This document shows, piece after piece, positions 4,675 to 33,629 of a stretch of 36,171 nt of DNA (position 1 is its first letter; every line of letters starts with the position of its first letter). The notes under the pieces were generated by a model. That model did no database searches and was not told where the DNA came from. It worked only from the letters and a program-made list of their open reading frames with translations. Made by a program: the position numbers and the translations under genes. Source of the stretch: Armatimonadota bacterium (GTDB taxonomy: Bacteria; Armatimonadota; Fervidibacteria; Fervidibacterales; Fervidibacteraceae); NCBI GenBank assembly GCA_025060305.1, contig JANXCD010000005.1:1-36171 (forward strand), in the 5' to 3' direction.

Positions 4675-4906
4675 CTCGCTATTGTGCTAAATTTCTGCAA
4701 AGGCATTATTTGCCATAGGAGTTAGACAGTTATAGTATGCTGCACAACAAATTGCAGAAAGAGCAAGTGAACTATGCCTAAAATATGCCCGAAAAAACAG
4801 GGAAGTGCACCGCCTAAATATCCAGTTTCAATCTTTACTCAAAAGTTTGTTGGTGTAACCTCAAGGTCGGACTACTGCTCAACAGAAGAAATCAAGACAG
4901 AAAAAA

Positions 4907-4980
4907 GTCGGCACGCCAGTAGGCGTGCCCTCCGAATTGGCTAAAAATCTCTCGGAGGGCAGGGCTACTGCCCTGCCGAT
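4907..4980. repeat. Composite three-hairpin intergenic element (family A, AGTA/TACT loops, GTAG...CTAC boundaries)
   Basis: GGCACGCC-AGTA-GGCGTGCC (4910-4929, 8/8 bp), CTCCGA...TCGGAG (4930-4957), GGCAGGGC-TACT-GCCCTGCC (4958-4977, 8/8 bp), with outer TCGGCA...TGCCGA. Confidence 0.75.
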
Positions 4981-5433
4981 AAATCTAACGGCATATTACC
5001 AACACACCTTGAAGTAAAGAGCGTCCAGTTCTTTCTGCAATAAGTAGTGATTCCGCTTATTTTCCTCAAGGCTTTCAAGAAACTCAAACTCATCCATGTC
5101 TATTCAACGCTAAACTGCATCAATCATGTTGACAAAAGACTTAGCGTCGGGTTACTCTTTTATGCTGCACGAAAATTTCTGTCATAAGATTTTGTTGTTC
5201 AGTTAGCAAAGTTTTCTACCGAGAAGTTTTTCAGCAAAGAGCGTTAGACATCGCTCTAAAAAGCGGGACAAAATTTTTCAGGTAACTTTAGGTTTGCCAA
5301 AGGTTGACAGCAGTAGTAAAGTATGCTATCCTTTTATGCGATTCAAAAAATAGGGCGAGCAAAAGCGGGTCGTTATAACTGTGTGGTTCGTAGTCGTTCA
5401 GGTGGCAAATTGTGTGAGAAAGGGGGCAATGAG

Positions 5434-8295: not shown

Positions 8296-10242
8296 CTATT
8301 GCTTGCCTTCATCAGGAGCGGGCAAGATTGGTGGAGAAGATTTTTGCTCAGTTTGCTTTTCACTTTCAGGCTGAGTTCCCTTTAGCCTTTCTGAAGGCAT
8401 TTTTTCTGGCGTCTTTGTTAGTCTTGCCCTCAAGGCGACGTCCTTCCATCGGGCAACGGCATCAGCGCCAATAATCACACGAGCCTTACAGGCTTCAGGG
8501 TAAACATTCACCACTATTGCTTCACCTAAGTCTTCTTCCAGCCTTACTGCTTTTCGCCCAGTCTTAACGATGACCTCACGGTAAATGCGAAAATTGTCGC
8601 CGATTTTTATTCCCTGATTTTGCCCAATGTCAATATAGACAAAGACCGAATCTTTGTCAACCTCAACAGCGCCGATCAAACCTTCAATGATAGTCGGTGC
8701 TACCTTGACAACTAAGGGTGAAGTGGGTTGGGAGAGCCAGTGAATTTCTTCTCTCATTGTTGTCAAAAGTTCAACGATGGCAGCAGTTGCTGCCGAAGGG
8801 TAAAGTTTTTCGTCGGAGATAAACATGGAAATTCGGTCAGGCTGGAGTGTTGGTGGTTTCGCTGCTTCAACCTGACGGGTGCTTTCAACAGATTCCTTCG
8901 TTGCTGTGGCTGTGGTTGTTTTTGACCAAATGAGTTCACCTGTTTGACCTTCATAGAGCCAAACTTGCAAGCGGGCAGTTGCGCTTTCAATTCTGATAGT
9001 CTTGATTTCCCAGATTTTCATGTCTGCTGCAGGACTTGGTCTGCTTGACAACCTTTGAGTCCGAACTGATTGAGTATCAAAGCCACTCAATTTACCAGTC
9101 AAAATCAAATCTGCTTTGTTGGCTTTCGCTAACTCAAGGATATACTTTCGCTCAACTGTGCCATCTTGGAAAGGAGACCAATCATAGAGCGGTTCTGGAG
9201 GTTTAGTGGGCATTAGGGTTTCGTTGGCGAACCTTTCGTTTTGAACTGCATTGAACACTTGAGCAGCGAAATCGCCCACTCGGTCACGGTAATAAACGAT
9301 GTCGCCGAAAGGAACGACAATCAAACGCTCAACATTACCGATGACAGGGTGAGTTATCACCAAAGGTTCTTCAGGGACATTTGAAATGTCAGAGTATCGT
9401 CTCAAAAGCCCATTCAAAGCCTGAGGAAAGGCTCCATAAAACAAAACCTGCCAATAGTTACCGCCCTTGTTTTTCCGAACAGCAACACTCTGATTGGGAG
9501 CAAGGAGTTTCAAGTTGAAGGGTAATCGTTCCTGAATTGAAACAGGTGCAGGAGGAAGCAAAAGGTAGATTTCGGTTTCAGTTACAAGCAAATCTTGAAC
9601 TCGTGAAATTGTTTCTGGAGTAGCCCAAACGAAGTTGACATTTGTTCGCTCAGCAAAAGCATTGACAATTTCTTGTCCGCCATTTGTTATGACAACACAA
9701 ATCGGAATAGGGGTTGCTTCCCTCATCCTCATGTCTCTCGGCTCACGGACTAATCGCATGCAAAATCGTTCAATAGCGTTCTTCAAGCCAGCATAGGAAG
9801 GGGCGGAGATGAAAACTCGGTAACGAGTGCCTTTTGAATCTCGCAAAACATCGCAAGCGATGATAACATCTTGGCGACGAATGAGGGTCAAGTCATAAGG
9901 GACAACATGTCTTTGCTCAATTGTCAAGTCGCCTCGTGAACGGTCAACGATGACTACAACGCTCCGCTCAGTGGCAATTAACTCTTCAATCCGAAAACTT
10001 AAGTCTTTCAATGACACGAATTCGGCTGCATGGACTGGTGGCATATAGGTGCGGAAAAGGTTAAAAAGAGTTTCGTCGTTAGTCACAATGAACATAGGTG
10101 TTTGAGCCAAAAGTCCCGCTGCAGGGCGTGGCTCTTTTAAGGCTCTTGCAATGTCTCTTAAGATGTCCCTTTGCGCAGCAGAAAAGGAAAGTAACGAGAT
10201 CGCAATGAATGTTAGCGCTGTCAACTGAATCCATCGCTTCAT
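8296..10242 (-). CDS. Secreted protein of unknown function, paralogue B of a tandem pair
   Basis: Signal peptide MKRWIQLTALTFIAISLLSFSAA; ATG at 10242 preceded by GGAGGTGG; shared blocks with 6163..8079 (TPMFxxxNDETLFNLFRTYxPPxHxAEFVxLK; LLAPNQSVAVRxxKGGNYWQVLFYGxFPxAL; VFVYIDIGQNQGIKIGDxFRIxRE). Confidence 0.85.
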   Translation of the reverse strand: MKRWIQLTALTFIAISLLSFSAAQRDILRDIARALKEPRPAAGLLAQTPMFIVTNDETLFNLFRTYMPPVHAAEFVSLKDLSFRIEELIATERSVVVIVDRSRGDLTIEQRHVVPYDLTLIRRQDVIIACDVLRDSKGTRYRVFISAPSYAGLKNAIERFCMRLVREPRDMRMREATPIPICVVITNGGQEIVNAFAERTNVNFVWATPETISRVQDLLVTETEIYLLLPPAPVSIQERLPFNLKLLAPNQSVAVRKNKGGNYWQVLFYGAFPQALNGLLRRYSDISNVPEEPLVITHPVIGNVERLIVVPFGDIVYYRDRVGDFAAQVFNAVQNERFANETLMPTKPPEPLYDWSPFQDGTVERKYILELAKANKADLILTGKLSGFDTQSVRTQRLSSRPSPAADMKIWEIKTIRIESATARLQVWLYEGQTGELIWSKTTTATATKESVESTRQVEAAKPPTLQPDRISMFISDEKLYPSAATAAIVELLTTMREEIHWLSQPTSPLVVKVAPTIIEGLIGAVEVDKDSVFVYIDIGQNQGIKIGDNFRIYREVIVKTGRKAVRLEEDLGEAIVVNVYPEACKARVIIGADAVARWKDVALRARLTKTPEKMPSERLKGTQPESEKQTEQKSSPPILPAPDEGKQ

Positions 10243-30661: not shown

Positions 30662-30859
30662 ATGACAATGAGGCGAAAAGGGAGAAGGGGCGATGAAAGG
30701 TTCGTAGCGTTGTTGAAATCTATGAGGGCTAATGGTGCTACTTCTGCAGAATTAGGTAAAGTCGCATTGGAGGCGATTGATAGCGGTTGGGAAATAGCAA
30801 CTTTGGCTCGTGCAATCGGTGTTTATCATAGAATGGTAGGTTTGAGTTGCAGCCATTAA
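30662..30859 (+). CDS. Small HTH-like ORF, possibly a fragment
   Basis: MRANGATSAELGKVALEAIDSGWEIATLARAIGVYHRM resembles a helix-turn-helix; 65 aa, start of the phage-like segment. Confidence 0.35.
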   Translation: MTMRRKGRRGDERFVALLKSMRANGATSAELGKVALEAIDSGWEIATLARAIGVYHRMVGLSCSH

Positions 30860-31040
30860 GGTGGAAGCCGAAGGGTTTGAAACTGGTTGAGCAACAAAAA
30901 TGTCGCCGCTGCCAAACGACAATTTGCTTGTGGTCATCGGAAAAACTTTCCCTTGTCTTGGCTAAAGCAACGAGAAAATGTTGCTTTGGTCAAATTTCCA
31001 TCACGGTCAAGTTGAGTCAAAATCATTGCAGGTGATAGTG

Positions 31041-32108
31041 ATGGCAATTACGAGTTGGGAAGAACTTCGCAAGATAATGGAGGGTAAAAGGAACGCTCCT
31101 TTGATTGCGGGCATCAATGTTTCCGTCACATCTGCGATAAGGCTTGGTGCCCTTGAAGCCCTTGACCCAAAGAAGTTTCCTCTCGCTCAAATCAAGGCAA
31201 GAGAGGATGCTTGTCCTTTTTGTAGGGCTATGCACAACAAGGTTTTGAGGATTGACCAACATCACGCTTACCTTCCGCCTTTTCACATCAACTGCCGATG
31301 TGTCGTTGTTAGATTGTCGGAAGGTGCTGCACCTGTTGATTTTGACCCTGAGGATGAAGAGATTAAGCGTAATTTGCACCACGCCCATTTTGTTGCCGAT
31401 TTGGTCAAAGGTAGGCAAGTTCGTTATGAGGCGTTGAGAGTTCCAGCAAGGGTTGAAGGTAGAGATTTCATTTTTCGTAGGTTCAAAGACAAAGCGACAG
31501 GCAGATGGCTAAGCAAGTTGGAGTTTAGGCAAGGAAAGCCTACATGGCTCAAGTTTGAGGGGTTTGAAAACTTGTTGCCTGAAAAGGGGCAAGAGCCAGT
31601 GTTTGACCTGCAAAGGATTGGGAGGGCAATCAGGCAACTTAGGCAAGCCTACCCAGAACTTTTCCATCGTGCTGACCTTAGAAGGGTTGTTATTCGCCCT
31701 CGTTTGCCTAAACCTTATGAGACAGAAAGAGGTTTTACCCGTCCTCCCAGTGGGATTGTTTGGTTGGGCGCAACCGAGATATCTCAGAGAAAGTTGCCAC
31801 TTGGAAACATCACTGCAACTGACCAGTTCCTTTTGACTTTGGTTGAAGAACTTTTGCATCCTAAAGCGAGAACCTACAAAATCAATCATACGAAAAGGTG
31901 GTCAAGGAAGCGTGACTCTCTTATGGGGCGAGATTGGCTTTTGCCAATTCTTTACAAAGATTTGTCTCTGGAGCAACAAAGAGAGATTTTGAAAGATTTT
32001 GAAGATTGGGTTTGCAAAGGGATTGCTGCTTTGTTGGTGGGGCAAAGTAGGTTAATCAACGACGAGGTTGAACACATACTTCGTTCCCTTTGGGGGGAAT
32101 TGAAATGA
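31041..32108 (+). CDS. Phage head morphogenesis (MuF/SPP1 gp7-like) protein with extra C-terminal domain
   Basis: FPLAQIKAREDACPFCRAMHNKVLRIDQHHAYLPPFHINCRCVVV (CPFC...PPxHxNCRC) is characteristic of the MuF family. ATG at 31041. Confidence 0.8.
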   Translation: MAITSWEELRKIMEGKRNAPLIAGINVSVTSAIRLGALEALDPKKFPLAQIKAREDACPFCRAMHNKVLRIDQHHAYLPPFHINCRCVVVRLSEGAAPVDFDPEDEEIKRNLHHAHFVADLVKGRQVRYEALRVPARVEGRDFIFRRFKDKATGRWLSKLEFRQGKPTWLKFEGFENLLPEKGQEPVFDLQRIGRAIRQLRQAYPELFHRADLRRVVIRPRLPKPYETERGFTRPPSGIVWLGATEISQRKLPLGNITATDQFLLTLVEELLHPKARTYKINHTKRWSRKRDSLMGRDWLLPILYKDLSLEQQREILKDFEDWVCKGIAALLVGQSRLINDEVEHILRSLWGELK

Positions 32109-32545
32109 TAATTGAAGGCAGGAAACGCTTTCGCTATCTTATTCTCAAAAAATCAGAAGATGAAATCGTTGCCTTTTACAGACCAGAGCAAATTCTTTAT
32201 TTGGGCGAGGCAAAAGATGACCCTGAGTTGATGGAGATAGTGGCGCCTTTGGATGTCGTGGTTGAATACTACCCTGCTGAATTGGCTGTCAAGCCCCTTG
32301 AGGGTGAAGAAAAGGAAAGCCTCAAAAGGGTTCTGATTTGGCTTGACGAGAATTTGCCGAAAGAAAAAGTTGAGAAAGAAGGTTGGTTGATTGTCCCTGA
32401 AACTTATGCCAAACCCGATATTGGTCATTTAGCGGAGCCAGAAGATTACGAGCGCATAAAGCGAGGCGGAAGGCGTAGGATAACTGAAATTCCTGAGTGG
32501 CAAGTTTACTTTGGCGAAACTACTGACGACGATGTTCAGTTATAA
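32105..32545 (+). CDS. Small acidic protein, ATGA-overlapped with the MuF-like gene
   Basis: MIIEGRKRFRYLILKKSEDEIVAFYRPEQILYLGEAKDDPELMEIVAPLD...FGETTDDDVQL; start codon overlaps the upstream stop (32105-32108). Confidence 0.7.
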   Translation: MIIEGRKRFRYLILKKSEDEIVAFYRPEQILYLGEAKDDPELMEIVAPLDVVVEYYPAELAVKPLEGEEKESLKRVLIWLDENLPKEKVEKEGWLIVPETYAKPDIGHLAEPEDYERIKRGGRRRITEIPEWQVYFGETTDDDVQL

Positions 32546-32975
32546 CCGTGAACCTTATCCTTGAAACTCTCAAGAGCGCATTTTGAAACCTGACGGTAGG
32601 TGAAAAGTCAACTTCGGTGACTTGCAAAATTAAAGCCAAGCCTCCTGCTTGGACATCCGTTGCCAAAACTTCTGCAACGCAATCGGTGTAGTCGTGAAGT
32701 AACTTAGCCGTTTCTTCTTTATCGCTTCCTGCCACTGCTATCCAAACTTCGCCTTCCATCTTTTGTCTCAATTTGCCTTGAACTCCCAAAGTTGCTTGTT
32801 GTTGTGGGTAGCGGTTGATGTCAACGGAAAGGCGTGGCAAAACGGTTGGCGAAGTTATCACCAAATCGCCATACTCAATTTCTGTTGGCAAAGCCAAGTT
32901 GGCTTGAGCAAGTTTTGTTGGCAAGTTGGTATTTAAGTGATTGATGATTTGCTCAACGATTTGTCTCGTCTTCAT
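32520..32975 (-). CDS. Phage tail terminator/tail-completion-like protein
   Basis: Size and pattern (RQIVEQIINHLNTNLP..., KLLHDYTDCVAEVLATDVQAGGLALILQVTEVDFSPTVRFQNALLRVSRIRFTVITEH) resemble tail-terminator proteins; lies in phage context. Confidence 0.5.
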   Translation of the reverse strand: MKTRQIVEQIINHLNTNLPTKLAQANLALPTEIEYGDLVITSPTVLPRLSVDINRYPQQQATLGVQGKLRQKMEGEVWIAVAGSDKEETAKLLHDYTDCVAEVLATDVQAGGLALILQVTEVDFSPTVRFQNALLRVSRIRFTVITEHRRQ

Positions 32976-33051: not shown

Positions 33052-33061
33052 ATGGCAATTT

Positions 33062-33125
33062 TTCGGTCGGGCGGTAGCCTGACCTTCCGAAAGAATTCGG
33101 AGGGCAAGCCTACTGGCTTGCCGAA
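33062..33125. repeat. Second copy of the family A composite three-hairpin element
   Basis: GGTCGGGC-GGTA-GCCTGACC (33065-33084), TCCGAA-AGAA-TTCGGA (33086-33101), GGCAAGCC-TACT-GGCTTGCC (33103-33122), outer TTCGG...CCGAA. Confidence 0.7.
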
Positions 33126-33144
33126 TTTTTCCGTCTTGATTTTC

Positions 33145-33170
33145 GGTTCGTCAGTAGCCGAACCCTCTGA
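33145..33170. repeat. Half-copy of the family A element
   Basis: GGTTCGTC-AGTA-GCCGAACC (7/8 bp) followed by CTCTGA, matching the left hairpin plus the start of the middle hairpin. Confidence 0.55.
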
Positions 33171-33359
33171 TTTGCGAATAGGCTTGTGCCTGTCCCTACT
33201 TGCTTTTTACGGCGTCCGAAATGGTTTGTTGCAAAATTGGTGACAGTGGTAGACTACGGTGCCCAATTTTGCGAAAACTTTTGCCCTACAATCGCCTAAA
33301 AAGGGGCACCCCTATATTAGAGCCCAGATTTTTCCCAAAGAGGAAGTCAAAAAGCGGGA

Positions 33360-33629
33360 ATGGAACTTGAGAGGTTGCAAATTCAGTTTCGCATTCTAAC
33401 AGGTTCATCGGATAAAGCAGCGAAAATGATGGCTCAAATAAGACAAATTTCCCAAACTTCTGTCTTTGATTACAAGACCTTATCCGAAGCAGCAGCAAAA
33501 CTTGGCAACACAATTTCTGCTGTTGGTGGCGATGTAAATCAAACCCTACCTCTTTTGCAAAGGATTCAAACTCTCGCTTTAGCCTTTGATCAAACTACAC
33601 CTGAAGCCCTTAGCGGAAAGTGTCCTTAG
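33360..33629 (+). pseudogene. Truncated phage tape-measure protein fragment
   Basis: LERLQIQFRILTGSSDKAAKMMAQIRQISQTSVFDYKTLSEAAAKLGNTISAVGGDVNQTLPLLQRIQTLALAF matches the tape-measure N-terminal domain pattern; 89 aa, ends next to the fabH 3' end. Confidence 0.7.

Follow-up and report, generated by a model that had tools for sequence, protein, structure and literature searches.

The closest described counterparts of the gene pair analysed here are the MuF polymorphic toxins of temperate phages, reported mainly from Firmicutes, in which a portal-adjacent muf gene encodes an N-terminal MuF domain and an extension of more than 100 aa, the C-terminus varies over the conserved N-terminus, and an ORF of less than 150 aa lies downstream (Jamet et al., 2017; PMC5576092). 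Such a small ORF comes directly after 89.4% of the MuF toxin genes, compared with 25.5% of the short MuF genes (PMC5576092). Activity has been shown for Bxa and Apk2, MuF fusions that carry, respectively, an ADP-ribosyltransferase and an alarmone synthetase (PMC11699363; PMC12226406), and in the case of Bxa both toxicity and immunity proteins have been demonstrated (PMC11699363). The window, that is, the whole stretch of 36,171 nucleotides of Armatimonadota DNA that was analysed, contains a comparable arrangement in a decayed prophage: a MuF gene with a long C-terminal extension, followed by a small ORF. The pair resembles the MuF polymorphic toxins in its domain layout, in the length of its downstream ORF, in its association with a temperate phage and in the variation of its C-terminus over a conserved N-terminal part, and it shares with Bxa and Apk2 the fusion of MuF to a putative effector next to a small putative immunity gene. 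Unlike in these systems, the C-terminus carries no known toxin domain, the gene lies outside the portal–MuF head operon, and the phage is of the Mu-like transposing type. On balance, we regard it as somewhat probable that the pair constitutes an allelic effector/immunity cassette which belonged to a Mu-like transposable phage and survives in a decayed prophage.

The gene for the MuF-type minor head protein (31041–32108, plus strand; 355 aa) is intact, and in the alignment it begins at the same place as its relatives. As claimed in the initial annotation, the N-terminal half carries the MuF Cys/His motif, with C58PFC61 and PPFHINCRC at residues 79–87, which is invariant in the relatives. Matches to Pfam, PHROG and NCBIfam models agree with this assignment: residues 55–89 give a hit to Phage_Mu_F (E = 6e-6; 27.4 bits, a little below the curated cut-off of 29.6), the PHROG minor head protein family phrog_115 is matched with E = 3.5e-6, and TIGR01641 yields 28.3 bits against a cut-off of 39.65. 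The constant part (residues 1–165; 31041–31535, plus strand), which includes the CPFC/PPFHINCRC and YEALRVPARVEGRDFIFRR blocks, is 69–70% identical to the phage relatives; conservation ends around residue 160–165. The variable C-terminus (residues 166–355; 31536–32105, plus strand) is basic (pI 9.74, net charge +8) and extends ~190 aa past the constant part, in line with the extensions of at least 100 aa of the MuF polymorphic toxins. The initial annotation had seen no recognisable head-morphogenesis extension in the C-terminal ~200 aa; a linker up to residue ~200 is, however, still recognisable in relatives.

Downstream, an acidic protein of 146 aa, the putative immunity protein or partner, is encoded at 32105–32545 on the plus strand (pI 4.67, 23% Asp/Glu, net charge −12). 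The ATGA overlap between the MuF gene and this small Asp/Glu-rich gene, pointed out initially, is indeed present, and a ribosome-binding-like G-run, ggggggaa (32092–32099, plus strand), precedes the ATG. Homologues of both genes occur in the same order in the viral contig L063, so that both are real genes. The MuF protein of L063 (350 aa) has a C-terminus homologous to that of the window (43.5% identity) in which TDQFLLTLVEEL[LV]HPK is conserved, and its small protein (139 aa, 38% identity) is encoded 1 nt after MuF. A 376-aa open frame antisense to this MuF gene (L063:7552–8682, minus strand) is probably a by-product of codon bias and no gene candidate; because this frame hides the MuF gene, longest-ORF annotation misses it. 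Further homologues of the small protein were found in L083–L085, where contig ends truncate the cassette, as they do at the locus of the sister genome G001; these three independent contigs begin no more than 12 bases apart at one point inside the small gene, which fits the behaviour of assemblies at strain variation. The MuF gene is also followed by an ORF of less than 150 aa in L063, L064, L065, L049 and L066, the gap between the two genes ranges from −4 to +10 nt across the window and the relatives, and basic MuF C-termini (pI 9.7–10.2) are paired with acidic partners (pI 4.7–5.3).

The surrounding sequence bears out the earlier statement that the prophage is decayed. Upstream of MuF lies the N-terminal remnant of a Mu-type transposase (30662–30832, plus strand; residues 1–57 of ~612, 54–55% identity in a tblastn search with the L063 transposase), joined by deletion to the remnant of a four-Cys gene (30832–31035, plus strand; tblastn identity of 44–49% to residues 20–84) which in relatives precedes MuF and encodes 94–98 aa, and of which an 80-aa version is present in G001. 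On the other side, the small ORF is overlapped by a convergent, intact gene (32520–32975, minus strand) that is 71–75% identical over its full length to the genes of L063–L066 (151 aa compared with 152–157 aa) and matches phrog_8346 with E = 0.001; its position suggests a function in tail completion. About 400 bases farther, an N-terminal fragment of a tape-measure protein is found (33360–33629, plus strand; Pfam TMP_3, E = 3.4e-9, 37.1 bits against a cut-off of 41). The intervening segment holds a dispersed short repeat with terminator-like hairpins (33057–33173), of which another copy lies at 4867–4984 of the window; this genome has ~20 more copies, one genome of the same order gives ~48 hits, and G001–G003 have none. 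The full-length transposase belongs to phrog_310 (E = 1.8e-29), and L063 carries both this MuA-type gene and a MuB-type ATPase gene (phrog_296), which identifies the phage group as Mu-like transposing, with the MuA stub as its trace in the window; the same genes, together with the integration of the remnant between host genes, mark the phage as temperate. Portal and terminase genes and the varied host insertion loci are likewise as in Mu-like phages, from which the group differs in that the gpF-like gene lies among the early-side genes, on the strand opposite to the head genes in most relatives.

Relatives of the pair were recovered by a profile search with the constant part of MuF, which yielded six close viral contigs, whereas the single queries P0001 and P0002 recovered none among the viral and genome contigs. 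The most informative comparison is that of L063 and L064, each of which has one MuF gene and no other. Eleven other genes of these phages, among them those for the transposase, MuB-type ATPase, portal, capsid, terminase and connectors, are 87–98% identical, and MuF residues 1–160 are 98.1% identical, whereas beyond residue 160 identity drops to 31%, mostly confined to the linker up to residue ~200, and the two follower genes show no relation to each other. In the BLAST comparison, DNA identity ends at L063:8084 (MuF codon 160) and returns at position 9070 inside the tail-completion gene, and a 60-base identity profile places the same two edges. The C-terminus and the follower gene thus constitute one exchangeable block over a common N-terminus. 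The pairing recurs: L049, L064, L065 and L066 combine a MuF part like that of the window (61–64% identity) with a C-terminus ~150 aa longer, which contains HEIGH and a conserved downstream Glu, and with a follower of 78–87 aa (79 aa in L064) unrelated to the small protein of the window; the other pair is common to the window and L063. The HExxH signature of zincin-like metallopeptidases, in the form HEIGH, is invariant in L049, L064 and L065.

The substitution rates across relatives, proposed initially as a dN/dS comparison, are given here as pN and pS only, because dS is saturated between the window and L063. For this pair, pN is 0.434 in the C-terminus and 0.418 in the small protein, compared with 0.217 in MuF residues 1–165 and 0.215 in the tail-completion gene; between L064 and L065, the values are 0.221 for the C-terminus and 0.197 for the follower, compared with 0.056 and 0.054 for the flanks. 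Hence, the two parts of the block diverge at matching rates, ~2–4 times those of their neighbours, and all remain under constraint. Synonymous divergence between L064 and L065 is also higher in the block (0.76–0.78) than in the flanks (0.56–0.62), which suggests that the block has had a history of its own. A second swappable block was observed in L083 (522–1415), L084 (528–1418), L085 (534–1433) and L109 (5112–6026), where an inserted DNA methyltransferase gene separates the adaptor gene from the tail-completion gene; its two very different alleles (37% identity, L083 compared with L085) share the protein ends, MAKRVVD near the start and DGEDEGVD at the end.

Neither the MuF C-terminus nor the small protein matched any family in Pfam, NCBIfam, PADLOC or PDB sequences, PHROGs gave nothing beyond chance, and no known toxin domain was found in the extension with the same collections. 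A known structural capsid domain, which the initial annotation had named as one of the outcomes that would speak against its reading, was likewise not encountered among Pfam, PHROG or PDB families. The AlphaFold prediction suggested at the same time gave no confident fold: the models of the full MuF protein (pLDDT 45) and of its C-terminus (pLDDT 57, pTM 0.51) were too poor, and Foldseek with the latter model returned only matches with E above 0.7. A plasmid search found none, a search of phage records returned only weak MuF or chance matches, and a scan of the viral contigs for the motif L-V-E-E-L-x-H-P-K recovered L063 only, plus chance matches. A phylum-wide search with the C-terminus and the small protein gave hits in G125 and G218 that were due to chance, the encoded proteins being unrelated on inspection, and those in G118 and elsewhere in the phylum were judged likewise (short, weak in score or with internal stops). 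Within the viral and genome contigs searched, the C-terminal family therefore has two members, those of the window and L063.

The gene order also departs from that of the published toxins. The muf gene is not adjacent to the portal gene; in L063–L066 and L049 it adjoins the tail-completion gene on the strand opposite to the head genes, so that in the window and these five relatives it is convergent to the head operon. Two diverged relatives, L048 (3053–4205) and L105 (5998–6630), the contigs of which both end inside MuF, have the MuF gene after the tail-completion gene with both on one strand, the reverse of the arrangement in every other relative; in L048 and L105 the cassette may have been inverted or moved. 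No long inverted repeats were found flanking the cassette in the other relatives. That the cassette is a mobile or invertible effector module which has left the head operon, is swapped as a block and lies one way round to the head genes in L048 and L105 and the other way round in all others, with switchable expression or choice of the injected effector and with a C-terminus and an immunity protein that represent new families, strikes us as a long shot.

Several explanations have to be weighed against an effector/immunity cassette. The joint swap alone would also fit a non-toxic host-specific or anti-defence function, and the main rival is an injected protein of the polyvalent type, which would disarm host defences or process injected proteins during early takeover, with no inhibition of growth, while the small protein would act as a chaperone or inhibitor that silences the C-terminus until packaging. 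Polyvalent MuF fusions and processing by zincin-like peptidases have been described (Iyer et al., 2017; PMC5512222), and the alternative allele of L049 and L064–L066 likewise combines MuF with a zincin-like domain: for its C-terminus, with HEIGH and the downstream Glu, the PHROG search gave phrog_4529 ('minor head protein and DNA pilot') with E between 3.5e-9 and 8e-13, and there is a weak match to LPD1 (E = 0.0025). Its Pfam ATLF match is very weak (E = 0.008–0.2) and was taken as a shared superfamily signal only. More distant MuF C-termini from the same phylum carry HEYMH (L015) and HDLAH (L016). The window allele, however, lacks HExxH, its C-terminus having EELLH (EELVH in L063) at the place comparable to HEIGH; the weak LPD1 and zincin-like matches are restricted to the alternative allele, to which hhalign finds no detectable relation (probability 0.2%). 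A degenerate zincin, suggested by EELLH following a strand as HEIGH does, is without profile support and is retained as a lead only. The basic charge of the C-terminus would, moreover, be more typical of an effector acting on nucleic acids. Considering both sides, an anti-defence role appears unlikely for the window allele, although it deserves to be taken seriously.

A structural role is less probable. MuF proteins are virion components, the MuF gene is the sole one in L063 and in L064, and a head-morphogenesis module with an assembly partner would also be expected to be exchanged and to coevolve jointly, since the two must fit each other. Yet a MuF protein of the same phylum (L014) consists of 160 aa with no C-terminal domain, which indicates that the extension is dispensable for this class, and because L063 and L064 are 87–98% identical in capsid, portal and connectors, no feature of the head demands two unrelated extensions; we therefore find this explanation improbable. 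A different issue is whether the pair is a mere relic in this genome, with ORFs not yet broken, and here we see an even chance, compatible with either function in live phages. The initial annotation had suggested that the retention of two intact ORFs would fit selection, an argument that does not hold, because the tail-completion gene is full length as well; the survival of MuF and its partner is, by itself, no evidence of host selection, and the three adjacent intact phage genes look like a contiguous left-over of a prophage with both ends deleted. Consistently, another, independent remnant of this type of phage occupies a different host site in the sister genome (L018, G001:C12, 1–1742), truncated and next to a permease-like gene and nuoE/nuoF; over 333 bases, its DNA is 92% identical to that of the window. 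Its MuF gene, which the contig end interrupts at codon 42, differs from that of the window by eight synonymous and one non-synonymous codons, which argues against a mere relic but may reflect constraint in the phage and not in the host.

Returning to the effector/immunity cassette, its earlier formulation loses the argument from retention, but gains strong comparative support from the joint swap and the jointly elevated substitution rates, and it also agrees with the small ORF of less than 150 aa, the pairing of basic and acidic proteins and the coupling of the two genes; against it stand the lack of a known toxin domain and of a confident fold and the single homologue of the C-terminus. Judging by its sequence and context, the window protein joins a MuF part to a new C-terminal domain and belongs to a polymorphic cassette, and toxin and immunity roles for the C-terminus and the small protein are likely. 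Because no toxin domain is recognised and muf is not portal-adjacent, we refrain from classifying it as a MuF toxin and consider it a MuF protein with an unrecognised extension, which together with the small protein probably functions as a MuF toxin and its immunity protein do. In the proposed scheme, the N-terminal ~165 residues would place the polypeptide in the virion head, and the basic C-terminal ~170–190 residues would, by analogy with the published MuF systems, enter the next cell with the phage DNA as an effector directed at this new host or at rival elements. In the producing lysogen, the translationally coupled 146-aa acidic protein would bind and neutralise the C-terminus. The phages of this group replace the C-terminus and its partner jointly, whereas the MuF part and the genes around it are retained. 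In the genome studied here, such delivery is no longer possible, because the phage is dead.

Collectively, these observations show that polymorphic arrangements of the MuF type also occur in Mu-like transposing phages, here from a bacterial lineage that has been little studied, and they add a C-terminal domain and a partner without known relatives. The L063/L064 pair illustrates cleanly, in nature, how a putative effector is swapped as one block with its presumed antidote, and the near identity of these two phages makes the effector/immunity reading directly testable.
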